A stretch of 64,000 nt of DNA, taken from Acidimicrobiia bacterium (GTDB taxonomy: Bacteria > Actinomycetota > Acidimicrobiia > Acidimicrobiales > MedAcidi-G1). Below are positions 5,926 through 25,056 of this stretch, piece after piece (position 1 is the stretch's first letter; each line of letters begins with the position of its first letter). Under the pieces are notes generated by a model. That model was given only the letters and a program-made list of their open reading frames with translations. It searched no databases and was not told the DNA's origin. The position numbers were made by a program, and so were the translations under genes. The DNA lies in contig DUCC01000034.1 of NCBI GenBank assembly GCA_012959995.1, positions 62,001-126,000 on the forward strand. The letters run 5' to 3'.

Positions 5926-6581
5926 CGACAACGGTTGGGGTAGTGGTGTTTCCCGGTACCAACTGTGAAGCCGATGCTCTTGAAGCAGTAACCAGTTTGG
6001 GTGCGCAAGGTCGCCTGCTGTGGCACGGAGAAGCCGACCTCGGTGATGTGGATGCGGTCATTGTCCCTGGAGGGTTTGCCCATGGCGACTATTTGCGGCC
6101 CGGTGCCATTGCCCGGTTCTCTCCGGTTATGGATGGGGTGGCTAAGTTTGCGGCAAAGGGCGGCCCAGTTGTTGGTATCTGTAACGGGTTTCAAGTACTT
6201 ACCGAGGCCGGGTTGCTGCCCGGGGCCTTACAAAAAAACAAAGGGTTAAAATTTCTTTGTCAACCCTCAGTATTAAGAGTAGAAAGCGCCAATTCGGTGC
6301 TAACTTCCCAAGCCCAGGTGGGGGACGAATTAAGTATCCCTATTAACCATTTTGAAGGTAACTACACCTGCAGCGAGCAAACATTGAAGCAACTTCAAGA
6401 CGAAGACCGCATTGTTTTAACTTACGTTGATAACCCCAATGGGTCTCTGGGGAACATTGCTGGGGTGTGTAACGAAACCCGCAACGTGGTGGGCCTTATG
6501 CCGCACCCGGAGCGAGCATGCCATGAACTTTTAGGCAGCATGGATGGAGCCGTTTTGCTCCGATCCTTGCTGGCCAGTTAG
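5922..6581 (+). CDS. purQ: phosphoribosylformylglycinamidine synthase, glutaminase subunit PurQ
   Basis: Class I glutamine amidotransferase that releases ammonia for PurL. The 219 residues include [11 protein letters not shown] near the start, [14 protein letters not shown] around residue 50, the nucleophile motif GICNGFQVL with its cysteine near residue 87, and the final HPE of the catalytic triad in LMPHPERA. The start is GTG, overlapping the purS stop in GTGA. The purL start follows about 50 bases after the stop. Confidence 0.97.
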
Positions 6582-6633
6582 GCGCTGGACGAATGGAAAC
6601 CTTTTTTATATCTTGCCCACTGCGAGGAGCAGC

Positions 6634-8832: not shown

Positions 8833-8836
8833 CGAC

Positions 8837-10390: not shown

Positions 10391-11421
10391 GCGATGCTTA
10401 TCGAGCCGCTGGAGTAGATATTGATGCCGGTGAAGAGGCAGTGCAACGCATTATTCCGCACGTGCGGTCTACCTACCGCCCGGGGGTTATGGGAGACATC
10501 GGGGGTTTTGGGGGCCTTTTTGATCTGGCCAAAACTGGGTACACCGACCCCTTATTAGTGTCGGCCACCGATGGCGTGGGCACCAAAGCCGAGATCGCTC
10601 GCATGACCGGACGCTTTGACACCATCGGCCAAGATTTGGTGGCTATGTGTGTGGACGACTTAATTTGTGTCGGGGCCGCTCCATTATTTTTTCTGGATTA
10701 CGTAGCGGTAGGGCAGTTGGTACCAGAAGTTATGGAACAACTGGTGGCCGGCATAGCCAACGGTTGCCGCACTGCGGGCTGTGCATTAATCGGCGGAGAA
10801 ATGGCCGAACACCCTGGGGTCATGGAGACCGCTCAGTTTGATTTGGTGGGGTTTGCTGTGGGAGCAGTAGAACGCAGCAAGGTTTTAGATGGTTCACAAG
10901 TAGCGGCCGGCGATGTGCTGGTGGCGTTGGAGTCACCCAACCTGCGCTCTAACGGCTTTTCGTTGGCTCGGCGCATAGTTTTCGAGGTAGCAGAATGCTC
11001 GCTGGGTGAACCGGCATGGGAAGGCGCCGAAACCACCTTGGCCGACGAGTTGCTGGCCCCTAGCGTTATTTATGCCCCGGCGGTAGGTGCGGTTTTGGCT
11101 GAACACGAGGTACACGCCGTGGCGCATATTACCGGCGGCGGCCTGATTGGTAATTTGCCGCGGGTCATGGGCACAGAGGTAGATGCCTTGGTAGACACCA
11201 AAGCGTGGACTCCGCCTCGGATCTTTGCCGAGCTACAAGCGATGGGCGATATTTCTGATGAAGAAATGGGCCGAGTTTTTAACATGGGAGTAGGCATGGT
11301 GTTGGTGGTTCCCCAAAGTCAGGCCGATGGGGTGCTCAATACTTTGGCCACCCAAGGGCAAAGGGCCAGCATTATTGGCCAACTGGTTCATGGTTCTGGT
11401 TGCGTGACCTTCGACCGGTAA
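10387..11421 (+). CDS. purM: phosphoribosylformylglycinamidine cyclo-ligase (AIR synthetase)
   Basis: Closes the imidazole ring to make AIR. The 344 residues match the family; visible signatures are YRAAGVDIDAGEEAVQRI at the start, GGFGGLFDL (about 40), VSATDGVGTKAEIA (about 58-71), ALIGGEMAEHPGVM (about 137-150) and HITGGGLIGNLPRV (about 248-261). ATGA overlap with purF indicates coupling. With this gene the run covers the purine steps PurF, D, S/Q/L, M, E, C, B and A; purN, purH, purK and guaA/guaB are not in the window. Confidence 0.97.
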   Translation: MSDAYRAAGVDIDAGEEAVQRIIPHVRSTYRPGVMGDIGGFGGLFDLAKTGYTDPLLVSATDGVGTKAEIARMTGRFDTIGQDLVAMCVDDLICVGAAPLFFLDYVAVGQLVPEVMEQLVAGIANGCRTAGCALIGGEMAEHPGVMETAQFDLVGFAVGAVERSKVLDGSQVAAGDVLVALESPNLRSNGFSLARRIVFEVAECSLGEPAWEGAETTLADELLAPSVIYAPAVGAVLAEHEVHAVAHITGGGLIGNLPRVMGTEVDALVDTKAWTPPRIFAELQAMGDISDEEMGRVFNMGVGMVLVVPQSQADGVLNTLATQGQRASIIGQLVHGSGCVTFDR

Positions 11422-11431
11422 GGTCACCTTT

Positions 11432-11986
11432 ATGAGTAAACCTTCTGCGGCCCTTGTTGAACATTTGTTAAAATATTCCATTCGCACCGGCGACTTCACG
11501 CTAAAAAGCGGGCGAAGCAGCAACTGGTTTTGCGATTCCAAACAGACTGCTTGTCGCCCGGAAGGTATTTTGTTAATCGCTGAAGCGGCTTTAGAAGTTA
11601 TTGGTGATGACGTAACGGCTATTGGTGGGCTTACTGCTGGTGCTGACCCGGTGGCTTTTGGTATTGCTGCGGTGGGCGCCACCCGAGGGCGTGATTTACG
11701 TTCCTTTAGTATTCGAAAAGAATCTAAAGACCACGGGGTGCAGGGCCGTTTAGCCGGGGCGCTGCAACCCGGCGACCGCGTGGTTATTTGCGAAGACACG
11801 GTGACCCGAGGGAAGTCCCCGTTAGAAGCAGCGCAAGCAGTACGTGATTTGGGTGCCGAGCCGGTGCTTATCTTGTCGGTAGTTGACCGAGGCGGTACCT
11901 GTGAGGCAGCGGCCCGAGCGGCAGGAATCCCTTTTCACCCCTTGGTGACCGCACTTGATTTGGGTTTTCCCTACGAAGGACCTTGA
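11432..11986 (+). CDS. pyrE: orotate phosphoribosyltransferase
   Basis: Attaches orotate to PRPP to form OMP in pyrimidine synthesis. The 184 residues have the N-terminal LKSGRSSNWFCDSKQTA, the GGLTAGADPVAFGIAAVGATRG region that normally forms the substrate pocket, the flexible-loop IRKESKDHG, and the PRPP motif as VVICEDTVTRGKS (about residues 114-126). A related phosphoribosyltransferase of different base preference cannot be excluded, but the loop KESKDHG is typical of PyrE. It starts 10 bases after purM, so it is probably co-transcribed with the purine genes, another PRPP-consuming pathway. Confidence 0.9.
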   Translation: MSKPSAALVEHLLKYSIRTGDFTLKSGRSSNWFCDSKQTACRPEGILLIAEAALEVIGDDVTAIGGLTAGADPVAFGIAAVGATRGRDLRSFSIRKESKDHGVQGRLAGALQPGDRVVICEDTVTRGKSPLEAAQAVRDLGAEPVLILSVVDRGGTCEAAARAAGIPFHPLVTALDLGFPYEGP

Positions 11987-12019
11987 CCAGTACCGAAGCG
12001 CAGCCTCTAGGCTTCTGGT

Positions 12020-13423
12020 ATGCCTTTTCTCCCGACCGCTGCTTTTTCAATCGTTCTCCACGTGGAGCTCGACAATGTGCCCAATACTTTGGGCCGCCTC
12101 ACCACAAGCATTGGTGAAGCGGGGGCCAACATTGTTTCCATGGGGGGCTTCGATGTGCGCGGCGACTTGCTGGTAAATGATGTTTGTGTGAACTGCCGTG
12201 ACGAAGAGCATTCGTTGACGGTAGTAAAAAAAGTCGAAGAACTCAGCGGGGTGACTTTGGTTTCTTGGTACGACCGTACCTTCGCTATACACGAAGGCGG
12301 AAAGATTGAAGTTAAAACCTTGTGCCCAGTAAACGACCGTCATGATCTGTCCATGGCTTACACCCCAGGGGTAGCTCGGGTTTGTATGGCCATTCATGAG
12401 AATCCAGAACGGTCACATGAACTAACTATTCGCAAAAATACGGTAGCTATCGTGACCGATGGGACGGCCGTGTTGGGTTTGGGCGATATTGGCCCACTGG
12501 CTGCTATGCCGGTGATGGAAGGCAAAGCGCTGCTCTTTAAAGAGTTCGCTGGGGTGGATGCTTTTCCTATTTGCCTCGACGTCACCGATCCGCAGGAAAT
12601 TATTGACACGGTGATCCGTTTGGCCCCCACCTTTGGCGGCATCAATCTGGAAGACATTGCCGCACCGGCCGCTTTTGCGGTGGAAGATGCCTTGAAAGAG
12701 GCGCTAGACATCCCAGTTTTTCATGATGACCAACACGGAACCGCCGTGGTTACTTTGGCTGCTTTGTGGAATGCTTGTCGCCTCACCGGCCGCAACATCG
12801 AAGACCTTTCGGTGGTTATTGCGGGCATGGGCGCCGCTGGAGTAGCGGTAGGCAAGATTCTTTATAACGCAGGCGTTGGTGAGATCGTGGGGGTGGATCG
12901 CACCGGTGCGGTGTACTCCGGCCGCGACAACCTCAACTCGGCCAAAGAATGGTTTGCTACCAACACTAACCCGGAACGCAAAATGGGCACTTTGCAAGAT
13001 GTCCTGGTGGGCGCTGATGTGTTCATCGGCGTAAGTGGGCCCGGACTCTTGACGGCCGCTGACCTGCGCACCATGAACCCAGAGCCGTTTGTGTTTGCTA
13101 TGGCTAACCCTGACCCAGAGATTCGCCCCGAAGAAGCCGACGGCTTGGCGGCGGTGATGGCCACGGGGCGCAGCGATTACCCCAACCAGATCAACAACGT
13201 GTTGGCGTTCCCCGGTATTTTTCGGGGCGCTTTTGATGCTCAGGCCACCGACATTACCGAAAACATGAAGTTGGCGGCCGCTCGCGCCATCGCCGAGTCT
13301 GTGTCTGATGAAGACCTCACGGCCCAGTTTGTGGTGCCCTCGGTATTTGACAAAGAGGTACCGTTTGCGGTGGCCAAAGCAGTGGCCGAGGCGGCTCGGA
13401 CTGATGGGGTTTGCCGAAGTTAA
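12020..13423 (+). CDS. NAD(P)-dependent malic enzyme with N-terminal ACT domain
   Basis: Oxidative decarboxylation of malate to pyruvate. Residues about 8-80 read as an ACT domain (SIVLHVELDNVPNTLGRLTTSI), a small-molecule sensor seen in many actinobacterial malic enzymes. The catalytic part begins near residue 95 with SMAYTPGVARVC (catalytic tyrosine), EGKALLFKEFAGVDAFP (lysine) and NLEDIAAP/FHDDQHGTA (metal and substrate binding); the Rossmann domain has IAGMGAAGVAVG. Length 467 fits. No clear Shine-Dalgarno site precedes the ATG; the gene lies 33 bases after pyrE and ends the + strand run. Confidence 0.93.
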   Translation: MPFLPTAAFSIVLHVELDNVPNTLGRLTTSIGEAGANIVSMGGFDVRGDLLVNDVCVNCRDEEHSLTVVKKVEELSGVTLVSWYDRTFAIHEGGKIEVKTLCPVNDRHDLSMAYTPGVARVCMAIHENPERSHELTIRKNTVAIVTDGTAVLGLGDIGPLAAMPVMEGKALLFKEFAGVDAFPICLDVTDPQEIIDTVIRLAPTFGGINLEDIAAPAAFAVEDALKEALDIPVFHDDQHGTAVVTLAALWNACRLTGRNIEDLSVVIAGMGAAGVAVGKILYNAGVGEIVGVDRTGAVYSGRDNLNSAKEWFATNTNPERKMGTLQDVLVGADVFIGVSGPGLLTAADLRTMNPEPFVFAMANPDPEIRPEEADGLAAVMATGRSDYPNQINNVLAFPGIFRGAFDAQATDITENMKLAAARAIAESVSDEDLTAQFVVPSVFDKEVPFAVAKAVAEAARTDGVCRS

Positions 13424-13430
13424 GTTTGCA

Positions 13431-13472
13431 CGACTCTTGTGGTTGGGCTTTTAATCCCCGACCTAGGAGTCG
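13431..13472. terminator. possible bidirectional terminator hairpin
   Basis: CGACTC (13431-13436) pairs with GAGTCG (13467-13472), and inside it GGTTGGG (13441-13447) pairs with CCCGACC (13457-13463) with one G-U pair. It lies between the convergent stops of the malic enzyme and the alcohol dehydrogenase and overlaps the end of the latter by ten bases. The loop carries the only T run, so this is a weak call. Confidence 0.35.
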
Positions 13473-14554
13473 AACATGATGACCGAACGCAGCGTTGACC
13501 CGGCCCGCATTTCGTCGTAGCCGCCGTTTACTTCATCAAGAGTGATGTGGGCGGAAACTAAACGTTCAAGGTCAAGGCGTCCACCGAGGTAGTGAGTTAC
13601 TAACTCGGGGATGGTGGTTTTAAAGTTGCTATTGCCCATGAAAAGCCCGCGGAGGCTTTTTGCTTGCAAAACCATGAAGGCACCGGGCACGGCCATGGTG
13701 CTGGTCGCCGGGGGAAGGCCCACCAGGTAAGCGGTGCGCCCGGGTTTGATCATGGCTAAGGCTTGTTCGGCGGTTGCGGTTAGCCCTATGGCTTCGAAGG
13801 CAGCATCAACCCCGCTGGTGAGTTCCAGCACGGCAGCCACCGGGTCGGTTTCGCTGGCATTGATGATGTCAGTGGCTCCGAACCCTTTAGCCGCTTCAAG
13901 TTTTTCGGCATTGAGGTCAATAGCGATGATGCGTCCCGCGCCGGCCAAGCGGCAGCCCTGCACAATGTTGAGGCCTATGCCCCCACAGCCAATGACGGCC
14001 ACGGTTTCTCCGGCGCGGATGGCGGCGCCGTTTACGGCTGAGCCCACCCCGGTAATGACCGCACAACCCAGCAGGGCGGCAAGGTCGAAAGGAATGTCGT
14101 CATTGATGACCACGGCAGCGTTTTCGTGAACCAACATTTGTTCGGCAAAAGCCCCCAAGCCGGCCATAGCGCGGATGGGTTGATCGCCCAAAGCTAAACG
14201 GGGGGTTTCGTTTTCATTTCGCCCTAAGAGTTGACGGCGTTCGCAGGTCCAAGTTTGACCATTTAAGCATTCGGTACAGGAACCGCAGAATTGGGTCAAG
14301 CAGGTCACTACATGGTCGCCTGGTTTCATGGTGGCCACGTCGGGGCCTACGGCGATGACTTCACCAGAGGCTTCGTGACCCAAGGCAGTGGGGCCGGGGC
14401 CCAAGGGCAAGAGCCCTTCGATGACGTGAAGGTCGCTGTGGCAGAGCCCCGAAGCACGGGTTTGGATAAGCACCTCGCGTCCTTGTGGTTGAGCAATGGT
14501 GAGATCTTCGATGACTAATTCACCGGGGGCTTGATGTAAAACGGCGGCGCGCAT
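13463..14554 (-). CDS. zinc-dependent alcohol dehydrogenase (MDR superfamily)
   Basis: Oxidises an alcohol to an aldehyde or ketone with NAD(P). The 363 residues contain the catalytic-zinc region GLCHSDLH and GHEASGEV, the four-cysteine structural-zinc loop CGSCTECLNGQTWTC, and the Rossmann motif VIGCGGIGLN. The start is ATG at 14554, preceded by AAAGGAG; a longer frame to 14590 would read through the operator palindrome and has no ribosome site. It is transcribed divergently from the enoyl-CoA hydratase, with the palindromic operator 14580-14601 between them. The substrate is unknown; the context suggests alcohols made by the nearby P450s. Confidence 0.92.
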   Translation of the reverse strand: MRAAVLHQAPGELVIEDLTIAQPQGREVLIQTRASGLCHSDLHVIEGLLPLGPGPTALGHEASGEVIAVGPDVATMKPGDHVVTCLTQFCGSCTECLNGQTWTCERRQLLGRNENETPRLALGDQPIRAMAGLGAFAEQMLVHENAAVVINDDIPFDLAALLGCAVITGVGSAVNGAAIRAGETVAVIGCGGIGLNIVQGCRLAGAGRIIAIDLNAEKLEAAKGFGATDIINASETDPVAAVLELTSGVDAAFEAIGLTATAEQALAMIKPGRTAYLVGLPPATSTMAVPGAFMVLQAKSLRGLFMGNSNFKTTIPELVTHYLGGRLDLERLVSAHITLDEVNGGYDEMRAGSTLRSVIMFDS

Positions 14555-14579: not shown

Positions 14580-14601
14580 AGGTTAGCCAATTGGCTAACC
14601 T
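14580..14601. promoter_or_regulatory. perfect 22-bp palindrome, probable TetR operator (site 1)
   Basis: The 11-base arm AGGTTAGCCAA at 14580-14590 is followed at once by its exact reverse complement, ending at 14601. It sits in the divergent gap between the alcohol dehydrogenase and the enoyl-CoA hydratase/TetR operon. Both strands have TAACCT at the site edge, placed like a -10 box: on the + strand it ends 7 bases before ATG 14609. The core GTTAGCCA-N2-TGGCTAAC recurs at 22698-22717. Binding by one of the TetR proteins encoded at 15337-16496 is inference. Confidence 0.8.
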
Positions 14602-14608
14602 TGTTTAC

Positions 14609-15334
14609 ATGTCGGCCGATACAAATGTTTTATTGAATATTTCTGAGGGGTTAGCCACGGTAACCTTGCAGCGCCCAGAGCGCCGGAATGCTCTCATCGG
14701 CCCGCTGTTTGACGAATTGGCGGCGGCCTTTACTTCGCTTAGCCAGAACCCAGAAGTCAATGCGGTGTTGCTTCATGGCGCACAAGGAGCATTTTGTTCT
14801 GGTCTCGACCTGAAAGAATACAAAGCTGACCCGCCTCCGCCCTGGTTGACTTCATCCGCGGCGTCGGCGTCGGCTGCTCATAAGGCTATTTACGCTTGCC
14901 CGGTACCGGTGGTTGGTGCTTTAGAACGCTTCGCTATCAATGGAGGCGCTTCGCTGGCTTTGGCTTGCGACCTTTTGGTGGCTGGCCAGGGAGCGTATTT
15001 GCAAGTCGCAGAAATAAAGTTGGGAATGGCGGCACCCTTAAACTTGACGTGGCTTCATGAGCGTTTTTCAGTTGCTGCTGCACAGCAATTGGTGTTGACG
15101 GGACGCAAATTCTTTGGCCCGGATCTTCACCGTTTAGGGATAGCGCTGGAGGTTGTTAAAGATGATCAGGTATTGGCTCAGGCCACCCAGGTTGCTCGTG
15201 AAATAGCCCAATGCCCGCCCCAAGGGGTGCGGGCTTTAAAAGCGGGGCTGGCTGTGGGTTCTTCTTGGGAAAGCCACCGAAAAGCCGTGCTCGAGGTTTC
15301 CCAGCAGGCTCTTTTTTTACCGGTTCAAAACTAG
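14609..15334 (+). CDS. enoyl-CoA hydratase/isomerase family protein
   Basis: Crotonase-fold enzyme of fatty-acid or related acyl-CoA degradation. The 241 residues show the early VTLQRPERRNAL, the oxyanion-hole region GAFCSGLDLKEY and the second one FAINGGASLALACDLLVA. I choose ATG 14609; an in-frame TTG at 14591 lies inside the operator. No ribosome site precedes the ATG, and TAACCT ends 7 bases upstream, so the message may be leaderless. Its stop is 2 bases from the first TetR gene. The typical glutamate positions of hydratases (GxGxxxE) are not obvious, so isomerase or another crotonase activity is possible. Confidence 0.85.
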   Translation: MSADTNVLLNISEGLATVTLQRPERRNALIGPLFDELAAAFTSLSQNPEVNAVLLHGAQGAFCSGLDLKEYKADPPPPWLTSSAASASAAHKAIYACPVPVVGALERFAINGGASLALACDLLVAGQGAYLQVAEIKLGMAAPLNLTWLHERFSVAAAQQLVLTGRKFFGPDLHRLGIALEVVKDDQVLAQATQVAREIAQCPPQGVRALKAGLAVGSSWESHRKAVLEVSQQALFLPVQN

Positions 15335-15336
15335 GC

Positions 15337-15897
15337 ATGTCAGAAACCTCGGCCCGCCAAGACATTATTGAGGCGGCGCTGCGCTTATTAGAGGATCGCC
15401 CCCCTTCGGCTATTTCTGGTCGTGAACTGGCCGAAGAAGCAGGAGTGAGCTATGGGTTGATTCACTATTACTTCAATGGGAAACAAAATGCTTTTCTTGC
15501 TGCCCGAGATTTTCTTAACCAGTGGGTAGTTGATTCGGTGATGCAAGGAGGGAGCCAGTCGGTTTCATTAAGTGATACCAGCGACCGACGCTCGTTTTGG
15601 GCGGTGGCCGGGCATATGGCTCTTGAGACTTCGAAGGAATGGAATGAGGAGAGAGACCTTCCGGTGGTTGAGGCCTATTTGAATCTTTTTGCCCAAACCG
15701 ACCCCTCTGGTGATCGAGTGCAGCACGCAGTTGTTGTTGCTTCTCTTTACGCCCTTTTGCTGGGCCGACCCATTTTTGGCTCGCACAATGCCCACTCGGT
15801 TGGATTGACGGATGAAGATTTACCAAAAGTGGATCAGCGTATTAGATCCTTAGTGAGTGCCCTTGAAGGCTCGGTTGGTTTGGAGCAGCAAACATGA
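15337..15897 (+). CDS. TetR-family transcriptional regulator (first of a tandem pair)
   Basis: DNA-binding repressor of 186 residues. The helix-turn-helix lies at about residues 8-55: RQDIIEAALRLLEDRPPSAISGRELAEEAGVSYGL, closing in the typical IHYYFNGKQNAF. The start is ATG 15337, 2 bases after the hydratase stop; an upstream in-frame start lies within the hydratase gene. The rest is a ligand-binding domain with no recognised ligand. Its recognition region is nearly the same as that of the next gene, so both may bind the same palindrome or form a heterodimer. Confidence 0.92.
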   Translation: MSETSARQDIIEAALRLLEDRPPSAISGRELAEEAGVSYGLIHYYFNGKQNAFLAARDFLNQWVVDSVMQGGSQSVSLSDTSDRRSFWAVAGHMALETSKEWNEERDLPVVEAYLNLFAQTDPSGDRVQHAVVVASLYALLLGRPIFGSHNAHSVGLTDEDLPKVDQRIRSLVSALEGSVGLEQQT

Positions 15898-16496
15898 ACG
15901 CCAAGCCACGGGGAGCCCAACAGGTAAAAGTAGCTTTGGTGGCGGCGGCCGTGAGGTTATTGGGGCAACGCCCACCTCATCAAATTTCTGGCCGAGAACT
16001 GGCCGAAGAAGCGGGGGTGAACTATGGGTTGGTTCACCACTATTTTGGCTCAAAGGAAGTTTTACTGCAAGCAGGTTTGGCGGACTTGGCGTCTTCTTTT
16101 GCCGAGGGGCCAATTGATGAGTCTTGGTCTTCAGACGAACCATTTTCTATACGCCATCGCATGGATTATTTGCGAGCGTTAGCGTTTTCTTCAATCTCGG
16201 GGGAACTCGAAGGCCTTTCAACCGTGCACCCGGTGATTGAAGATTCATTAAAGAAGGTGAGTGTTTTACGGGGGAAAGGCCAAGACCCGGATAAACAAAC
16301 GCTTACCGATGTGGCGGTGGGAACACTCTTCCAACTGGGTTGGTCTCTTTTTGAACAACGAGTGTTGCCGGGTTTTGCCTTTGACAAAGAAGAAGAGGCT
16401 GAATTTGAAAAACGTCTACGCGCCACCTTGCGGGCCATCATGTTGGATGGGGATGTAGCCAAGGCGACACAAGCAACCCTGCACGGTAAGTCTTAG
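15894..16496 (+). CDS. TetR-family transcriptional regulator (second of a tandem pair)
   Basis: A paralogue of the preceding regulator, 200 residues, overlapping it by four bases (ATGA). The helix-turn-helix is shared (ISGRELAEEAGVNYGLVHHYFGSKE), while the ligand-binding half differs strongly. The stop overlaps the stop of the convergent acyl-CoA dehydrogenase gene by four bases. Candidate targets are the two matching palindromes at 14580 and 22698. Whether one protein represses and the other modulates is unknown. Confidence 0.92.
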   Translation: MNAKPRGAQQVKVALVAAAVRLLGQRPPHQISGRELAEEAGVNYGLVHHYFGSKEVLLQAGLADLASSFAEGPIDESWSSDEPFSIRHRMDYLRALAFSSISGELEGLSTVHPVIEDSLKKVSVLRGKGQDPDKQTLTDVAVGTLFQLGWSLFEQRVLPGFAFDKEEEAEFEKRLRATLRAIMLDGDVAKATQATLHGKS

Positions 16497-17647
16497 TTTT
16501 TGAGGGTGTCCTTGAAGGCAAGATTGCGGTCTGGAGTAGGTTCGCGAGGCAAACCAAGCACACGCTCACCTAAAGTATTTCGTTGCACTTCATCGGTGCC
16601 TCCACCTAAAGAAAGCGCTGGGGCATCACATATTCCGTAAGTCAACGTTTTTTTATCGTTGCCGAGAGGTTTCCCTTCCCAGGCGATTACTTGCATGTGG
16701 GCTAACCGGGTGGCGGTAGCAGCGGCGGCCCGTCCCTCTTTGGTGCGCCAGAGTTTAGTAAGCGAGGGGTGAATGCCCGGGCGCCGGTTTAACCACTCAA
16801 TAATTTTTCGGTTGGTAAAAAGAGTGGCCAAGTCTTGTCGAACGATGGGGTCTTGGTGGGCCTCGCTCTCTTGCGCTAAGGAAATCAGTCGTTCAACAGT
16901 GATCGGGCGGCGGCCTCCCCCGGCCCCGATAGAGGAACGCTCGTAACTCAATAAAGCGACAGCCATGCGCCAGCCTTCGCCGGGTGCACCAACAACCCAT
17001 GGAGCGGGGATTTTCGCTTCGGTAATGAACACTTCGTTGAAGCTGGATACTCCGGTCATCTGGTGCAAGGGCCGCACCTCGACGCCCGGTTGTTTCATGG
17101 GGAGAATCATCATGGAGATGCCTTGGTGTTTTGGCACGTCAGGGTTGGTTCGAGCGAGCAGTATGCCAAAGTCGGCATCGCTGGCTCCGGAGGTCCAGAC
17201 TTTTTGACCACTTACCACCCACTGGTCGCCGTCAAGTTTGGCACTGGTGGTAAGCCCGGCGAGGTCTGATCCGGCTCCGGGTTCGGAATAAAGTTGACAC
17301 CATATTTCGTCACCTCTTAATCCGGGGCGGAGGAATCGTTGCTGTAATTCAGTGCTGCCATAATCACGCAAAGTAGGCAGGGCCATATTGATACCGATGC
17401 CAAAACCAAAAACTGCGTTAGCGGATTCTCTACTGGGGGCTTCTTTGCGAAAGGTGTTGATGAATTCTTTATCTAAGCCTCGGCCACCGGTTTCGATCGG
17501 ATAGTCAAGGGCCCCAAGACCGGCATCGTAGCGAGCAGCGAGGTAGGCCCTTCCTCGCTCTAGGGGGTCATCAAGACCAGAGAGTAAATCAGGCAGGGTG
17601 GCATAAAAAGATTGAACTTCGGTGCGAAATTGAGCAAGGTCCTCCAT
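16493..17647 (-). CDS. acyl-CoA dehydrogenase family protein
   Basis: FAD enzyme introducing a trans-2 double bond in acyl-CoA or a related substrate. Family segments are EIWCQLYSEPGAGSDLAGLTTSA (about 115-137), QKVWTSGASDADFGILLARTNP, and the C-terminal GGGTDEVQRNTLGERVLGLPRE. The catalytic glutamate common in this family is not easily placed. The start is ambiguous: ATG 17647 (385 residues) or GTG 17665 (six residues longer); neither has a clear ribosome site. It lies convergent to the TetR pair and divergent from the sulfatase. Confidence 0.88.
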   Translation of the reverse strand: MEDLAQFRTEVQSFYATLPDLLSGLDDPLERGRAYLAARYDAGLGALDYPIETGGRGLDKEFINTFRKEAPSRESANAVFGFGIGINMALPTLRDYGSTELQQRFLRPGLRGDEIWCQLYSEPGAGSDLAGLTTSAKLDGDQWVVSGQKVWTSGASDADFGILLARTNPDVPKHQGISMMILPMKQPGVEVRPLHQMTGVSSFNEVFITEAKIPAPWVVGAPGEGWRMAVALLSYERSSIGAGGGRRPITVERLISLAQESEAHQDPIVRQDLATLFTNRKIIEWLNRRPGIHPSLTKLWRTKEGRAAAATATRLAHMQVIAWEGKPLGNDKKTLTYGICDAPALSLGGGTDEVQRNTLGERVLGLPREPTPDRNLAFKDTLKN

Positions 17648-17702
17648 GTGGGCTACTTTAATCACCTAGCAAACTTTGTGAAAACTCAAGAGAGTGAAAA
17701 AG

Positions 17703-20000
17703 ATGACTGAACCAGTTAAGCGACTTTTTTCTGAAGCGACCGGTACCCCGCTTTCTTTAGACCAAGCACCTGCTGGTGCCCCCAACGTGGTGGTGGTGTT
17801 GCTTGACGATGTGGGCTTCGGGTCGTTTTCTACTTTTGGTGGCCCCATAACTACTCCAGCATGTGATCGTGTCGCTGCCCAAGGTTTGCGCTACAACCAG
17901 TTCCACACCACGGCACTTTGTGCCCCCACCCGTGCTTCGCTGCTTACTGGCCGCAACCACCACACCGTGCACGTGGGATGCATTACCGAGGTGGCGAACT
18001 CTTTCCCTGGCTATGACTCAATAATCCCTGCGGAGGCAGCCACGGTGGCCGAAGTACTTCGCTCCAATGGATATGCCACCGGCATGTTTGGCAAAGGCCA
18101 TCTCACCCCCCGGTGGGAGGTAGGCCCGGCTGGCCCCTTTGACCGTTGGCCCACAGGCTTGGGTTTTGATCGCTTCTATGGTTTTCTGGGTGCAGAAACG
18201 TCGCAATTTGAACCGGCCCTTTATGACCAAACCACTCCCATTGAGCCTTATGTGGGTCGAGGGGATTACCACCTCACCGAAGATTTGGCAGAGCAGTCCA
18301 TCAATTGGATGCAGCAAGTAAAAGCGCACCGACCGGATCGGCCGTTTTTTTGTTATTTTGCTCCCGGTGCGGTGCATACGCCCTTGCAGGTTCCGGCCGA
18401 CTGGCTTGACCAATTTGCTGGTCAGTTCGATGAAGGCTGGGATGCTCTCCGGCAACAAATTTTTGAGAAACAATTGACCTTAGGGGTTATCCCGGCCGGC
18501 ACGGTGAACACGCCTCGTCCAGAAGAAATACCCAGTTGGGATGAATACCCCGATCGGTACAAACCGGTGGCTCGACGCCTTATGGAAGTATTTGCGGCCT
18601 TTTTGGCCCACACCGACGCGCAGGTAGGAAAGCTGATTGATGCGTTAGAAACCATGGATGAATGGGAAAATACTCTTTTTGTTTATGTCACGGGCGACAA
18701 CGGGGCTTCGGCCGAGGGAACCATTCATGGGGCCTGGTCGGCTCCTTCGTTTCAAAACGGGGTACACGAAGACCCGGAATGGCTCTTAGAACACATGGAC
18801 GACTTTGGTACCGCAGCATGTGAATGCCATTACAACGTGGGGTGGGCGTGGGCTCAGGACGCACCGTTTCAATGGATGAAACAAGTGGCGTCGCATTTTG
18901 GGGGAACCCGTAACGCCATGGCTTTGTCGTGGCCTCAACACATTACTGATGCCGGTGGTTTGCGCACTCAGTTCCATCATGTGGTCGACTTGGCGCCCAC
19001 TATTTATGAGGCCGCCGGGGTGAAGCCTCCCGAGGTAGTGAACGGGGTGAAGCAGATGCCTATTGAGGGAACCTCCATGGGGTACTCCTTTGACGAGGCC
19101 TCAGCGGCGAGCAAAAGAACTACCCAATATTTTGAGATTCTGGGTAATCGAGCTATTTACCACGAGGGCTACATTGCATCGTGTTTTCATGGGAGGGTGC
19201 CATGGATTCGTATGGCCAGCCAACCCTTTGATGGCCCGCAAGAAAAATGGGAACTCTACGACATCACGACTGACTTTTCTCAGAGCCACGACTTAGCCAA
19301 AGAACAACCCGAGCGTTTGGCTGAAATGAAAGAACTCTTTGATGCGGAGGCCCGCCGCAATGGCGTTTACCCGTTACGCGACCCCGGGGACCGCCTCACC
19401 GCCGACACCCGCCCGCCCTCTCCGTTGCAAGGGGCAAAGCAGGCCACCTACACGCCGGCCCATGTACGCATGCCGGAAGGCAGCGTGATTGATATTAAAA
19501 ACCGGTCGTTTGATTTGGTTGCCCGGTTAGAAGTGGATGCTTCAGATGTTGAAGGGGTCATCGTGTGTCAGGGGGGAAACCTCAATGGGTGGACGCTTTA
19601 TTTGCAAGAGGGGCGGCCGGTTTATCATTACAACTTGTTTGGACACCAGCGAACGACGGTAGAAGCATCAGAACCTTTAACTCCCGGGCCCCACGAGGTG
19701 CGGGTACTTTTTGATTACGACGGAGGTTTTGGCAAAGGGGGAACCGCTCACCTGTTTGTTGATCAAGAACTGTTGGCTTCGGAACGCATAGAAGCCACCG
19801 TGCCGGTGGTTTTTTCTATGAGTGGAGAAACCTTCGATGTGGGCGTGGATACCGGTGCCCCGGTGGGCTTGTACCCGCATCTGTTTCCTTGCACGGTCAC
19901 CATTAAAGACGTCACCATCACCTTGTTAGATGAAATTGATGCTGAAACTCAACAAGCGATCACTGAGGGTGTGTTTAAAGCTGCTTTGGCTGCGCAGTAA
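17703..20000 (+). CDS. arylsulfatase (type I, formylglycine-dependent)
   Basis: Hydrolyses a sulfate ester. The nucleophile motif CAPTR has Cys73, which must be converted to formylglycine; the metal-binding NVVVVLLDDVGFG is at residues 28-40 and LTGRNHHTVHVG follows. The body extends to about residue 560 with FVYVTGDNGASAEG as the second metal site. The last 200 residues form an extra beta-rich domain (LVARLEVDASDVEGVIVCQGG, HEVRVLFDYDGGFGKGG) of the kind found in larger sulfatases. No signal peptide is seen, so it is probably cytosolic. ATG 17703 has AGAGAG upstream; GTG 17694 is an alternative. No formylglycine-generating enzyme gene is in the window. Confidence 0.92.
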   Translation: MTEPVKRLFSEATGTPLSLDQAPAGAPNVVVVLLDDVGFGSFSTFGGPITTPACDRVAAQGLRYNQFHTTALCAPTRASLLTGRNHHTVHVGCITEVANSFPGYDSIIPAEAATVAEVLRSNGYATGMFGKGHLTPRWEVGPAGPFDRWPTGLGFDRFYGFLGAETSQFEPALYDQTTPIEPYVGRGDYHLTEDLAEQSINWMQQVKAHRPDRPFFCYFAPGAVHTPLQVPADWLDQFAGQFDEGWDALRQQIFEKQLTLGVIPAGTVNTPRPEEIPSWDEYPDRYKPVARRLMEVFAAFLAHTDAQVGKLIDALETMDEWENTLFVYVTGDNGASAEGTIHGAWSAPSFQNGVHEDPEWLLEHMDDFGTAACECHYNVGWAWAQDAPFQWMKQVASHFGGTRNAMALSWPQHITDAGGLRTQFHHVVDLAPTIYEAAGVKPPEVVNGVKQMPIEGTSMGYSFDEASAASKRTTQYFEILGNRAIYHEGYIASCFHGRVPWIRMASQPFDGPQEKWELYDITTDFSQSHDLAKEQPERLAEMKELFDAEARRNGVYPLRDPGDRLTADTRPPSPLQGAKQATYTPAHVRMPEGSVIDIKNRSFDLVARLEVDASDVEGVIVCQGGNLNGWTLYLQEGRPVYHYNLFGHQRTTVEASEPLTPGPHEVRVLFDYDGGFGKGGTAHLFVDQELLASERIEATVPVVFSMSGETFDVGVDTGAPVGLYPHLFPCTVTIKDVTITLLDEIDAETQQAITEGVFKAALAAQ

Positions 20001-20003
20001 AAC

Positions 20004-21230
20004 TCAGCCGAAGTTGAGGGCCATGATGCGGGGGCCGCGTACTTGGCCGCCGGCCCAGGTGACTTCATCGGGGTTGGCCAAGGTGAATTCGGGGATGCGA
20101 GTGAACCAGGTTTTGAGGGCTACTTCCATTTCCATGCGGGCCAGGTTGGACCCGGCGCAGCGGTGGATGCCGGCGCCGAAGGCGATGTGGCGGTTGCGTT
20201 GCCGGTCCAAGATCACTTGGTCGGGGTTTTCGAATACCTCGGGGTCGTGGTTGGCGCCGGGGAAGTTCATCAATACTTTGTCGCCGGGTTGCATGGTGAC
20301 ATTTTGGTATTCCACCACCTCGGTGACCCGGCGGGCCATGGTGACTGGCGAGTAGGCCCGTAAGAGTTCTTCAATGGCGGAGTCCCAGAGCGGGTCGTGG
20401 TGGTCGGTGGCGGCCATACGGCGGCGGTCTTCTTCGTGGGTAGCAAAGTGCCAAAGGGCGGAGCCAATAGACGACCAGGTGGTGTCAATGCCGGCTACCA
20501 ACTGCAGGTTGCACATGCCCACGATGACTTCGTCGGGGAGGGGTTGGCCGTCTATTTCGGTTTTTAAAAGTTCAGAAATTAGATCATCGCCAGGGCTTGC
20601 TTTTCGCTCGGCAACTTGTTCTTCAAAGAAGCTACGGATGACGTTTCGGTAGTGCACACGAAGTTCTGGTTGGGTCAACCCAATCTCGAGTACTCCTTGT
20701 ACCCAGATAATGAACTCGTCTACTCGCTCGCTGCCCACGCCGAGTTTGTGGGCGATAACCCGGGGTGGAATTTGTTGGGCGTAGTTGACGGCGCCGTCGC
20801 AGTTGCCGCGGTCGATGAACCCGTCAATGAGTTCGTGGCAGAGGGTTTCGGTGTAGGTGCGTTGTGGGGCAATGGCTTTGGGCGTAAAAAACGGCAACAA
20901 AGCTTTGCGGGTCCAGGTTTGTTCAGGCGGGTCGGCACTAATGGGGGCTGCGGCGTTGTAACTGGTGCTTTCGGTGTCGCGAAATTCTGGTGGTAAATCC
21001 ACCACGGTGGGCGCCTTAGAAGAAAGAGCAGGCACCATTTTGGCTAAGGCTTGTACGTCTTCATATCGGGTGGGGAGCCATGAGCCGCCCCAGCGATCGG
21101 TGTGGGCAATAGGGCATTGGCCTTCCCGTATTTCTGACCAAGCCGGTACAGGGTCGGTGATGTAGTCCGGGTCAAAAATGTCGTAATCGGTAGCCAGGTT
21201 TTCTACCGGGCAGCGGTCGGCATCGGTCAT
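20004..21230 (-). CDS. cytochrome P450 (second of a tandem pair)
   Basis: Haem-thiolate monooxygenase of 408 residues. The haem motif IAFGAGIHRCAG puts the ligand at Cys358; the I-helix oxygen-binding LVAGIDTTWSSIG and the K-helix EELLR are present. There is no membrane anchor, as usual in bacteria. It is closely related to the neighbouring P450 (gap of 2 bases), and the three genes ferredoxin, P450, P450 form an operon from the promoter near 22698. Differences between the two copies concentrate in likely substrate-contacting parts. The substrate is unknown. Electrons would come from the adjacent ferredoxin; the reductase is not in the window. Confidence 0.95.
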   Translation of the reverse strand: MTDADRCPVENLATDYDIFDPDYITDPVPAWSEIREGQCPIAHTDRWGGSWLPTRYEDVQALAKMVPALSSKAPTVVDLPPEFRDTESTSYNAAAPISADPPEQTWTRKALLPFFTPKAIAPQRTYTETLCHELIDGFIDRGNCDGAVNYAQQIPPRVIAHKLGVGSERVDEFIIWVQGVLEIGLTQPELRVHYRNVIRSFFEEQVAERKASPGDDLISELLKTEIDGQPLPDEVIVGMCNLQLVAGIDTTWSSIGSALWHFATHEEDRRRMAATDHHDPLWDSAIEELLRAYSPVTMARRVTEVVEYQNVTMQPGDKVLMNFPGANHDPEVFENPDQVILDRQRNRHIAFGAGIHRCAGSNLARMEMEVALKTWFTRIPEFTLANPDEVTWAGGQVRGPRIMALNFG

Positions 21231-21232
21231 GG

Positions 21233-22465
21233 TTAGCCGAAGTTGAGGGGCAAGATGCGGGGGCCGCGTACTTGGCCGCCGGCCCAGGTCACCTCATCGG
21301 GATTGGCCAAGGTGAATTCGGGGATGCGAGCGAACCAGGTTTTGAGGGCTACTTCCATTTCCATGCGGGCTAGGTTGGACCCGGCGCAGCGGTGGATGCC
21401 GGCGCCGAAGGCGATGTGGCGGTTGCGTTGTCGGTCCAAAATGACTTGGTCGGGGTTTTCGAATACCTCGGGGTCGTGGTTGGCACCGGGGAAGTTCATC
21501 AACACCTTGTCACCAGTTTGCAAACTGGCGCCGCTTATTTCAACAGGTTCCATAACCGTGCGGGCCATGGTGACCGCCGAGTAGGCCCGTAGTAGTTCTT
21601 CAATGGCGGAATCCCAGAGGGGGTCGTCGTGGTCGGTAGCGGCCATACGGCGGCGGTCTTCTTCGTGGGTAGCAAAGTGCCAAAGTGCTGAGCCAATAGA
21701 GGACCAGGTGGTGTCAATGCCGGCCACTAACTGCAGGTTGCACATCCCTACGATTACCTGGTCGGGCAACATTTGGCCATCGACCTCGGTGTTACAGAGG
21801 GCGGTGATGAGGTCGTCTTGGGGGTTTTGGCGGCGCTCGGCTACCTCATCGGCGAAGAAGCCGTGGATCATGTCGCCGTATTTGAGACGCAATTCGGGTT
21901 GAGTGAGGCCTATTTCTAGAACGCCGCGCACCCAGACGATGAATTCGTCAACCATGTTTTCATCTACGCCGAGCTTGTGGGCAATAACCCGAGGGGGGAT
22001 TTGTTGGGCGTAGTTGACGGCGCCGTCGCAGCCACCGTTGTCTATGAACCCGTCGATGAGTTCTTGGCAGAGGGTTTCGGTGTAGGTGCGTTGTGGGGCA
22101 ATGGCTTTGGGGGTGAAATGTGGAAGCAGCGCTTTGCGGGTCCAGGTTTGTTCAGGCGGGTCGGCACTGATGGGGGCCGCTCCGTTGAGGCCTTCGCGTT
22201 CCGGTCGGCGGAACTCTTCGGGAACGTTGACCACGATGGGGCCAGGGTTGGCGCTCGAAAGTTCAGGCACCATTTTGGCTAAGGCCTGCACGTCTTCGTA
22301 GCGGGTGGGGAGCCATGATCCGCCCCACCGTTCGGTGTGAGCAATAGGGCATTGACCTTCCCGTATTTCTGTCCAGGCGGGCACCGGGTCGTTGATGTAG
22401 TCGGGGTCAAAAATGTCGTAATCGGTGGCGACATTTTCTACTGGGCAGCGTTCGGTGTCGGTCAT
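21233..22465 (-). CDS. cytochrome P450 (first of a tandem pair)
   Basis: Haem-thiolate monooxygenase of 410 residues with haem ligand Cys360 in IAFGAGIHRCAG, I-helix LVAGIDTTWSSIG and K-helix EELLR. It follows the ferredoxin gene by 3 bases and precedes its paralogue by 2. The first 60 and last 80 residues are almost the same in both copies, also at DNA level, whereas residues about 75-105, 195-225 and 300-325 differ. This points to a tandem duplication with partial homogenisation. The start ATG 22465 gives MTDTERCPVEN, matched by the paralogue. Confidence 0.95.
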   Translation of the reverse strand: MTDTERCPVENVATDYDIFDPDYINDPVPAWTEIREGQCPIAHTERWGGSWLPTRYEDVQALAKMVPELSSANPGPIVVNVPEEFRRPEREGLNGAAPISADPPEQTWTRKALLPHFTPKAIAPQRTYTETLCQELIDGFIDNGGCDGAVNYAQQIPPRVIAHKLGVDENMVDEFIVWVRGVLEIGLTQPELRLKYGDMIHGFFADEVAERRQNPQDDLITALCNTEVDGQMLPDQVIVGMCNLQLVAGIDTTWSSIGSALWHFATHEEDRRRMAATDHDDPLWDSAIEELLRAYSAVTMARTVMEPVEISGASLQTGDKVLMNFPGANHDPEVFENPDQVILDRQRNRHIAFGAGIHRCAGSNLARMEMEVALKTWFARIPEFTLANPDEVTWAGGQVRGPRILPLNFG

Positions 22466-22468
22466 GGC

Positions 22469-22666
22469 TTAACCCTCGTGAATTTCGATAGCGAACTCTG
22501 GGCAGTTGTCCACGATGAGTTGAGCTCGTTCTTCCATGCCCTCGAGAACCTGACCTTCGTTGAGGACAAAGGCGTTGCCGTAGTCATCTACGTCTACCAA
22601 CTCAGGGGCCAGCGAGTAGCAACGGCTATGGCCTTCGCATTTTTCGGCGTCAACGGTGATCTTCAT
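22469..22666 (-). CDS. small ferredoxin for P450 (probable 3Fe-4S type)
   Basis: Electron carrier of 65 residues. Cluster ligands are Cys10, Cys16 and Cys55 in CEGHSRC and NCPEFA; His13 stands where a fourth cysteine would be in 4Fe-4S ferredoxins, a pattern known from actinobacterial 3Fe-4S or variant ferredoxins that serve P450s. GGAGG precedes the ATG. It is the first gene of the operon with the two P450s, downstream of the operator-like palindrome at 22698-22717. Confidence 0.93.
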   Translation of the reverse strand: MKITVDAEKCEGHSRCYSLAPELVDVDDYGNAFVLNEGQVLEGMEERAQLIVDNCPEFAIEIHEG

Positions 22667-22697
22667 GGTTCCTCCGCAATTAGGGACTATGTTCAGA

Positions 22698-22717
22698 AGT
22701 TAGCCAGATGGCTAACT
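22698..22717. promoter_or_regulatory. 20-bp operator-like palindrome, second copy (site 2)
   Basis: AGTTAGCCA (22698-22706), the centre GA, then TGGCTAACT (22709-22717). Sixteen core bases are the same as in the palindrome at 14580-14601 and only the two central bases and the outer pairs differ. It lies 32 bases upstream of the ferredoxin start on the minus strand. Read on that strand, TAACTT at the site edge could be the -10 box, so a bound regulator would block the ferredoxin-P450 operon. Confidence 0.78.
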
Positions 22718-22736
22718 CTTAAACCACATATTACCG

Positions 22737-22750
22737 ATAACGATCGTTAT
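22737..22750. promoter_or_regulatory. 14-bp perfect palindrome between ALDH and ferredoxin genes
   Basis: ATAACGATCGTTAT is self-complementary. It lies between the stop of the aldehyde dehydrogenase and the operator-like site, upstream of the ferredoxin promoter on the minus strand. It may bind a second dimeric regulator; as an RNA it would give only a short stem without a T run, so a terminator is less likely. Confidence 0.4.
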
Positions 22751-22762
22751 TAGCAAGTCCGG

Positions 22763-24190
22763 CTAGCCAGCGGGCAGGTTTATTTGCTTGGCCTCTAAAA
22801 ATTCTTCCATCCCGTGGCGACCCAACTCTCGACCATTGCCCGATTTTTTGTATCCACCGAAAGGCGCATCGGTGTTCAAGATAGAACCATTCATGTCTAC
22901 CTGGCCGGTGCGTAAACGCTGAGCCACCGACAAGGCACGGTCGGGGTCGGTGCCCCACACCCCACCAGAAAGGCCGTAGTCCGAATCGTTGGCAATGGCC
23001 ACTGCATCAGCATCATCGGTGTAACCAATAATGGAAAGCACCGGGCCAAAGATTTCTTGACGCGCAATGGCCATGTCGTTGGTGACGTTAGCGAACACCG
23101 TCGGTTGGGTGTGATAACCCACATCGAGGCCCTCCGGTTTACCGGTTCCTCCGGTTACCAAAGTGGCGCCTTCGTCAATACCGGTTTGGATAAGGCCTTG
23201 TACCCGATCCCACTGGGCTTGAGAAACAAGTGGTCCGAGGCGGGTACCTTCACCGTCGGCCGCTCCCGGGGTAAAGGCGGCGGCAATTTGCCCGGCCAAT
23301 TCGGCCGCTTCATCCATGCGGTCTGCTGGCACCAACAAACGAGTAAGGGCACTACAGGTTTGGCCCGAGTTTAAAAAGCAAGCGTTGACGGCACCCGGAA
23401 TAGCGGCCGAGAAATCGGCGTCATCCAAAATAATGTTGGCCGACTTGCCGCCGAGTTCTTGATGCACCCGGGTCACGTTGGGGGCAGCTACCTCGGCTAC
23501 CCGTGTGCCGGCCCGGGTAGAACCGGTAAAAGAAATCATGTCGATGTCGGGGTGGGCGGCCATAGCTTCGCCGACCTCGGGGCCCAGCCCAGAAACCAGG
23601 TTGAAGACGCCCGGGGGGAAGCCCAAGCCATCAATGATTTCGGCCAACAAAAAGGCATTCAATGGGGCAACCTCGCTGGGCTTGAGCACCACGGTGCAAC
23701 CCACGGCCATAGCGGGAGCAATCTTGGCCATGATCTGATGTAACGGATAGTTCCACGGAGTAATGCAAGCCACTACCCCAACGGCGTCGCGGGTAACCAA
23801 AGTGCGACCAAGGTCTTCTTCAAAAGCAAAGGCCCGAGCGGTACCAGGCACGCTGCCCGTAGTAGCGGTCGGCAAACCGGCTTGAATCATGTTGGCCAAC
23901 ATGGTCGGCATACCCATTTCGGAAGAAATAAGCGCACCCATTTCTTGCATACGAGCCCCTAATTGTCCGGCCAATCCTTCAATGTAGCCCAAGCGTTCTT
24001 CGAGGCTCAGGGCAGCCCAAGGTCCAAAGGCTGCTCGGGCCGCGGCTACGGCCGCGTCTACATCGGCGGCCACCCCGCGTGGCGTTGAACCAATGACTTC
24101 TTCAGTGGAGGGGTTGATTACCTCAATGCCGGTGTCGCCGCCCGAAGGCACCCAAGCACCGTTGATGTAAATGTTTTCATGGAAAGTCAT
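22763..24190 (-). CDS. aldehyde dehydrogenase family protein
   Basis: NAD(P)-dependent oxidation of an aldehyde to an acid. The 475 residues carry TPWNYP with the catalytic Asn147, QELGGKSAN with Glu245, [10 protein letters not shown] for cofactor binding, and NSGQTCSA with the nucleophile Cys279. GAGGTGA precedes the ATG. Together with the alcohol dehydrogenase at 13463 it could take a P450 product through aldehyde to acid. It has no copy of the palindromic operator in front of it, so its control may differ from the P450 operon. Confidence 0.94.
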
Positions 24191-24258: not shown

Positions 24259-25056
24259 TTAAACCAGTAAAGATTTTTGAAACCGCGAAAACTGGGCGTC
24301 GTCAATGCCTAACCCATCTCGGCGAAAAACGTCCCAGGAAGACCACTGACGCTCCACCGCAGCAAAGACTGCTTCAATAAAAGAGGCTTGGGTCAGCAAC
24401 AACACGCGTAACGGGGCCAACACGTCGTCGTCTAAACTTTCTGGCGCTACACCAGATTCCTGAGCCAAGCGATCACGAAACTCCACAAATTTTTGGTCGA
24501 TCCACACTCGGCGGACCTCGTTGCTTAAAAGAAAATCGTCAACCACCACGGACTCTTCTACCCCCAACAAACGCAACACGATGGCCGCCACAAAACCAGT
24601 GCGGTCTTTACCTGCGGTGCAATTAAACAACAATGGGTAGTGGTCAGGGTTGGTAACAAACTGAAAAACCGGGCGGTAGCGATCTAGGCGATGAGTGATA
24701 TTGCCGGCAAAATATTGGGCAATCATTTCTGGCGCTTGTTGCGACAAACCCGGTTCACCCAACCGGTTGGCGATGACCGCAAACTCGTTGTCATCTTCAG
24801 AAACTGAAAAAGCATGCACCCGGCAATCCAACAGTTTGGGATGAGGCCGTTCCTGGCTTTCGGTGAGTCGGCGTAAATCCACCATATTGCGTAGCTCCAA
24901 ACCTTGGAGAAGATTAAAGGAGTCACCCGAAAGGTCGCTGAGGTAACCGCTCCGAAATAACAAACCGGTGTTTACAAAACGGCCATCTTCGGTGGGCACG
25001 CCACCAACTTGGCGCAAATTTGCTTCAGAAATAAGTACGCGCTGGTCAACGGCCAT
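24259..25056 (-). CDS. tyrosine-phosphatase-like protein (dual-specificity type)
   Basis: The 265 residues show the phosphatase loop NCTAGKDRTG with Cys146 and Arg152, and an N-terminal EANLRQVGG and LFRSGYLSDLS typical of the bacterial Y_phosphatase3 family (related to MptpB-type lipid/protein phosphatases). No signal peptide or membrane segment is visible. Substrate unknown. It lies downstream of the tRNA terminator and upstream of the ALDH gene on the same strand, 68 bases apart; a functional link to the catabolic block is not shown. Confidence 0.87.
   Translation of the reverse strand: MAVDQRVLISEANLRQVGGVPTEDGRFVNTGLLFRSGYLSDLSGDSFNLLQGLELRNMVDLRRLTESQERPHPKLLDCRVHAFSVSEDDNEFAVIANRLGEPGLSQQAPEMIAQYFAGNITHRLDRYRPVFQFVTNPDHYPLLFNCTAGKDRTGFVAAIVLRLLGVEESVVVDDFLLSNEVRRVWIDQKFVEFRDRLAQESGVAPESLDDDVLAPLRVLLLTQASFIEAVFAAVERQWSSWDVFRRDGLGIDDAQFSRFQKSLLV

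Follow-up and report, generated by a model that had tools for sequence, protein, structure and literature searches.

A conserved palindrome as candidate operator of a tandem TetR pair and a P450-sulfatase gene cluster in uncultured marine Acidimicrobiia

The regulation of catabolism in uncultured marine Acidimicrobiia is barely known. A 64,000-nucleotide stretch of one such genome (GenBank assembly GCA_012959995.1, contig DUCC01000034.1, positions 62,001 to 126,000; called the window here, in whose numbering positions are given) carries a cluster of cytochrome P450, sulfatase, alcohol dehydrogenase (ADH) and acyl-CoA dehydrogenase (ACAD) genes around two tandem genes for TetR-type regulators, TetR1 and TetR2. 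A palindrome with the core GTTAGCCA-N2-TGGCTAAC lies at two promoters of this cluster. There is a strong case, from comparison of sequences, that it is the operator of the adjacent TetR pair, which would repress both the pathway and its own operon. A tandem-TetR catabolic regulon with a genuine operator is thereby well supported and apparently new; local TetR regulons are already known as a kind. The cluster provides a candidate regulon and operator for these bacteria, and the operator is a handle towards the inducer of the P450-sulfatase pathway.

The palindrome and its rarity

The initial annotation had reported one palindrome at two promoters, and exact cores are indeed found there, at 14582-14599 and 22699-22716. 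These are the only two copies in the window, in which no further core with up to three mismatches was detected. The full sites are as follows.

14580-14601, no strand assigned: operator 1, a perfect 22-bp palindrome, AGGTTAGCCAATTGGCTAACCT, at the divergent promoter of ADH and of the hydratase-TetR1-TetR2 operon; kept in the sister genome G002
22698-22717, no strand assigned: operator 2, 20 bp, AGTTAGCCAGATGGCTAACT, with a GA centre, 5' of the ferredoxin-P450-P450 operon; kept in G002

A second perfect palindrome of different sequence, ATAACGATCGTTAT, is located at 22737-22750, upstream of operator 2, and differs by one base in G002.

How rare is such a sequence? The genome that contains the window (2.03 Mb, 97% complete) was scanned for the core with mismatches allowed, and was found to hold the two exact cores, one copy with two mismatches and seven matches with three (below the backwards control). 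From base composition, about 0.0004 exact copies of the 18-mer are expected per 2.03 Mb. The core is not scattered over unrelated places, the outcome that had been set beforehand as speaking against a regulon. Within the window a third full copy is indeed absent, as had been stated, and the rest of the genome adds only the copy with two mismatches.

Might the palindrome be a chance or non-regulatory inverted repeat, such as a terminator or a hairpin? Palindromes can form hairpins, but in addition to the rarity of the core, no T-run follows the sites. Moreover, the sites precede start codons and persist at orthologous promoters while their N2 centre drifts. A non-regulatory repeat is hardly credible, and a chance or terminator origin was rejected on the rarity and on the scans of the genome and the class.

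The third, two-mismatch copy, ACTAGCCACTTGGCTAAC, is found at C34:43744, 18 kb beyond the window and about 150 nt 5' of an oligopeptide-type ABC transporter operon. Since the orthologous intergenic region before this operon in G002 carries a perfect site, GTTAGCCATTTGGCTAAC, the transporter operon probably belongs to the regulon in the window's genus. The regulon as initially drawn, from two sites in the window, is supported by conservation but was drawn too narrowly, as the ABC operon outside the window appears to be included.

Conservation of the operator with the TetR genes

The distribution of the operator was followed in a family sample of 48 genomes and a class sample of 296. The relatives that have names are metagenome-assembled genomes (MAGs) of Acidimicrobiales, many of them marine, judging from isolate names. 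A profile search detected TetR2 orthologs in 16 of the 48 family genomes. All 16 of these have the exact core TTAGCCRNNYGGCTAA, as do 3 of the 32 genomes in which no TetR2 was detected. Within the class sample, exact TTAGCCANNTGGCTAA occurs only in the two genomes that bear the cluster. Because the palindrome is nearly confined, among relatives, to genomes with the conserved pair, it is very probably the site at which the TetR pair turns the pathway off.

A genome usually has two to four sites, and across three genera these fall at one set of four promoter types. In genera other than that of the window, these are the promoters of ADH (whose ortholog there has an operator to itself), of hydratase-TetR1-TetR2, of the divergent ACAD and sulfatase genes, and of ferredoxin-P450, with a distance of usually 10-100 nt between operator and start codon. 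In the window's genus, ADH and hydratase share one site. The second outcome set beforehand, absence of the core from orthologous promoters, is likewise not observed: the core is present there in the relatives that retain the TetR genes. One operator, several catabolic promoters and retention in relatives, the marks of a local TetR catabolic regulon, are thus all found.

In two genomes without a TetR2 match, G019 and G028, the core sits at genes of the same cluster. Such sites would suit an unrelated regulator encoded elsewhere, with the TetR pair controlling something else. However, the G019 locus (L183), which has neither of the TetRs and none of the P450s and retains a single ACAD/sulfatase operator, looks as expected of decay and is an apparent remnant of the cluster, and in G028 the cluster lies on a contig of just 7.5 kb that breaks off at the second site. 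Operator presence also tracks the TetR genes within three genera, and binding by an unrelated regulator is very improbable. A site in G033, which has no cluster gene nearby, was dismissed as chance.

Two TetR proteins and one palindrome

15337-15897, plus strand: TetR1 (Pfam TetR_N, 42.7 bits against a cut-off of 24), recognition helix GVSYGLIHYYF
15894-16496, plus strand: TetR2 (Pfam TetR_N, 48.9 bits against a cut-off of 24), recognition helix GVNYGLVHHYF

Wherever a cluster locus extends over the region, both TetRs are present, in unchanged order. Across these loci, the helices read V[NS]YGL[VIL]HY[YH]F in TetR1 and GVNYGL[VI]HHYF in TetR2, while the two proteins of the window share 28% identity overall and 48% over the first 60 residues. 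Given recognition helices that are nearly identical in proteins that have otherwise diverged, both TetRs probably read the palindrome, either as homodimers or as a heterodimer. In a structural model of TetR2 (mean predicted local distance difference test score 65.6, with a low-confidence C-terminal part), the helices are present and the recognition helix comprises residues 44-50. The structural matches listed for this model are TetR-type regulators, with Z scores of 8.7-11.3.

Does the pair act as a single unit? TetR1 starts 2 nt past the hydratase stop codon, and the TetR2 start overlaps the TetR1 stop (ATGA, 4 nt). An obligate heterodimer with two different ligand pockets, a two-gene equivalent of Mce3R, would be a refinement of operator binding by the pair, and it agrees with the constant adjacency, fixed order and translational coupling of the two genes. 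The recognition helices are alike, although the C-terminal halves have diverged strongly; other Acidimicrobiia, Rhodospirillaceae and Gammaproteobacteria have comparable tandem pairs, the first helix being degenerate in some of these pairs; and Mce3R itself acts as an asymmetric M1-M2 unit (PMC11667970). Yet a perfect palindrome suits two homodimers equally well, and the site of Mce3R is non-palindromic. A heterodimer is possible rather than probable.

Alternatively, only one of the proteins, most likely TetR2, might bind the palindrome, with its partner reading another site or serving as an accessory sensor. TetR2 is better conserved than TetR1 and was the protein used in the co-occurrence test. 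In genus g4, TetR1 no longer has the conserved Lys that otherwise follows its recognition helix (YFESS), and the different palindrome ATAACGATCGTTAT could provide another site. Against this, TetR1 retains its helix pattern in every cluster locus, and ATAACGATCGTTAT is kept only partly in G002; a single binder is rather unlikely.

Tandem TetR pairs are also encoded in MAGs of Rhodospirillaceae and Gammaproteobacteria (L133, L136, L138, L159, L161, L163), where the first helix is degenerate and the second reads VNYGLIHHYF. Other Acidimicrobiia have P450-TetR-TetR clusters (L118, L125, L127, L129, L130, L132, L134, L146), most of them with a sulfatase; in these, the second TetR has no Lys after the helix.

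Promoter geometry and the proposed mechanism

Operator 1 is situated in the 54-bp gap between the start codons of ADH (14554, minus strand) and hydratase (14609, plus strand), which fits the rule that TetR targets are divergent genes separated by <200 bp (PMC3511530). Operator 2 lies 32 nt 5' of the ferredoxin ATG at 22666 (minus strand). Three hexamers resembling a -10 element, predicted from sequence, coincide with the operator edges.

14596-14601, plus strand: TAACCT, 7 nt 5' of the hydratase ATG (14609), for the hydratase-TetR operon
14580-14585, minus strand: TAACCT, ADH
22697-22702, minus strand: TAACTT, ferredoxin-P450-P450, at the gene-facing edge of operator 2

The edge of operator 2 without a facing promoter reads TAACTC. 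The short distance from TAACCT to the hydratase ATG is consistent with a leaderless transcript.

Across genomes, TAANNT is found at all 16 distinct edges facing ADH (9/9) or hydratase (7/7). At other distinct edges, its frequency is 8/16 for ACAD, 3/8 for sulfatase and 2/11 for ferredoxin, and the two positive ferredoxin edges are those of the window's genus. The ferredoxin promoters of other genera often have a TATCCT/TACTCT-like element upstream of the operator instead. The earlier proposal of a -10 box at the palindrome edge thus holds for ADH and hydratase promoters in general, but among ferredoxin promoters only for the window's own genus.

In the proposed mechanism, one or both TetR proteins would bind in the absence of inducer at the ADH/hydratase-TetR1-TetR2 and ferredoxin-P450-P450 promoters. 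The bound protein would cover the -10 element or the start region and block RNA polymerase, by which the pathway and the TetR operon would be repressed. TetR would then be released by an intermediate of the pathway, for which a hydroxylated compound or an acyl-CoA is plausible. The initial annotation had the P450, alcohol and acyl-CoA steps repressed together; the P450, ADH and hydratase promoters do have sites, but ACAD has none here.

Several observations weigh against an operator of this kind. The association between core and TetR2 gives a Fisher p of 4e-10, which overstates independence, as the genomes share ancestry; by genus the values are 0.036, 0.067 and 0.002. The gap between ACAD and sulfatase has no operator in the window's genus. 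TAANNT is also present at 18 of the 38 edges that face no known gene, and since T at the sixth position of the -10 hexamer is raised at these edges as well, part of the signal may be extended operator. Finally, TetRs of the L103-L117 type, which have the helix GVNYGLIHHYF, lack a TTAGNCA palindrome within 3 kb.

Cluster genes and possible substrate

13463-14554, minus strand: zinc alcohol dehydrogenase, ADH (Pfam ADH_N/ADH_zinc_N), predicted target of operator 1
14609-15334, plus strand: enoyl-CoA hydratase family protein (Pfam ECH_1), first gene of the regulator operon
16493-17647, minus strand: acyl-CoA dehydrogenase, ACAD, without an operator here and with one in other genera
17694-20000, plus strand: type I sulfatase (Pfam Sulfatase, 194 bits), without an operator here and with one in other genera
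20004-21230, minus strand: cytochrome P450 copy b (83% identity with copy a)
21233-22465, minus strand: cytochrome P450 copy a, heme motif FGAGIHRCAG
22469-22666, minus strand: small single-cluster ferredoxin (Pfam Fer4_15/Fer4_13), first gene of the P450 operon
22763-24190, minus strand: aldehyde dehydrogenase (ALDH), located upstream of operator 2 and in synteny with the cluster, without an operator of its own
24259-25056, minus strand: tyrosine-phosphatase family protein (Pfam Y_phosphatase3), a conserved neighbour also present in other genera

The sulfatase has the features of type I enzymes, with the formylglycine motif C-x-P-x-R present as CAPTR at residue 76, and a formylglycine-generating enzyme is encoded in the same genome. 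The score of ADH against the model for N,N-dimethyl-4-nitrosoaniline (NDMA)-dependent alcohol dehydrogenase (TIGR03989), 317.8 bits, is below the cut-off of 440, and this assignment is not supported. The purine synthesis and malic enzyme genes of the flank at 6544-13423 are unrelated to the cluster.

What compound might be degraded? The nearest relatives of ACAD, at weak similarity, are Tcur3483 and 4x28, both steroid ACADs. The P450 relatives, again weak, are a CYP125 ancestor and P450cin, and the nearest NCBIfam model of the hydratase is EchA19, with a score under the cut-off of that model. These relatives of ACAD, hydratase and P450 are consistent, though weak. A sterol- or terpenoid-like substrate, possibly sulfated, is plausible and is put forward tentatively.

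Comparison with known systems

KstR and KstR2 are actinobacterial TetR repressors that control P450, ACAD and hydratase genes via short palindromes, of the TnnAACnnGTTnnA type for KstR and the AnCAAGnnCTTGnT type for KstR2. Each is a single TetR governing a larger cholesterol regulon. The gene kinds targeted are the same as here, whereas the operator differs in sequence. In Mycobacterium tuberculosis, the CYP51 region Rv0761c-Rv0768 encodes ADH, ferredoxin, P450s, aldehyde dehydrogenase and a TetR; it is not known to have a sulfatase or a tandem TetR. The cluster resembles this region in gene kinds, and its ALDH fits the Rv0768 model best, at 435 bits, below the cut-off of 775.

BkaR of mycobacteria (Rv2506/MSMEG_4718) recognises the 16-bp core GTTA-N-T-N4-A-N-TAAC (PMC3920632). 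Like the candidate system, it is of the actinobacterial autoregulated TetR type, acts on local catabolic operons and has a palindrome with the outer arms GTTA...TAAC at several promoters (PMC3920632). In contrast, BkaR is a single TetR that works as a dimer on branched-chain keto-acid genes, while the present cluster combines two TetR genes and an 18-bp core with P450, sulfatase and ADH genes. Identity with the BkaR operator was rejected, as the palindrome has C instead of T at a defining position and a core of 18 bp.

Mce3R of M. tuberculosis is a fused double TetR, an asymmetric unit with a non-palindromic site and cholesterol-linked targets (PMC11667970). Both systems have two TetR units per regulatory entity. 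In Mce3R these form one chain, whereas here they are separate open reading frames with a perfect palindrome, and a fusion of the Mce3R type was rejected. The TetR2 model aligns to the Mce3R structure 9b7y with a Z score of 9.5, not above other TetRs. PheR, an IclR-family regulator, proved irrelevant as a comparison. A limited search of the open-access literature found no earlier report of this operator.

A lead on helix-operator recognition

Does the recognition helix predict the operator arm? Loci were retrieved by helix pattern and not by operator, except for L188, which came from the operator scan. Near GVNYG TetRs, 13 of 13 exact-form sites carry TTAGCCA in both arms. By contrast, all 17 sites near GVNHG TetRs have TTAGTCA or TTAGACA in at least one arm and none has TTAGCCA in both, one of them having C in one arm. 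Exact TTAGTCANNTGACTAA is present in one of the 296 class genomes, where it adjoins a GVNHG TetR. The variable Tyr/His is residue 44, with which the recognition helix begins in the TetR2 model.

Most of these loci fall into two clades, so the pattern amounts to nearly a single contrast. Independent, if weak, support comes from L158 and L169, of other phyla, where His goes with TTAGTC, and from L146 and L143, where Tyr goes with TTAGCC but the sites are imperfect or distant. A simple universal code is not established, since the L103-L117-type GVNYG TetRs have no such site, and the Tyr/His pattern is a lead only. It is improbable that a widespread TetR lineage consists of two-gene heterodimeric repressors that follow a code of one residue and one base at the same operator position, GVN-Tyr-G with TTAGCCA and GVN-His-G with TTAGTCA or TTAGACA. 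The Tyr/His pattern, with C or T(A) in the arm, bears on TetR recognition, as does the tandem pair on natural TetR heterodimers.

A number of GVNHG TetR genes (L120, L124, L128, L137, L139, L140, L142, L147, L149-L152, L188) follow a gene of the VOC (vicinal oxygen chelate)/glyoxalase superfamily. They belong mostly to Ilumatobacteraceae and other actinobacterial MAGs, and in most of them a conserved TATAGT element stands immediately upstream of the TTAGTCA (or TTAGACA) palindrome. In Nocardioides soli (L143, 4693-4727), two palindromes that resemble the operator, TTTAGCCACATGGCTAAC and ATTAGCCATCCGGCTAAT, overlap each other directly before aldehyde dehydrogenase and P450 genes, and a GVNYG TetR is encoded about 5 kb away.

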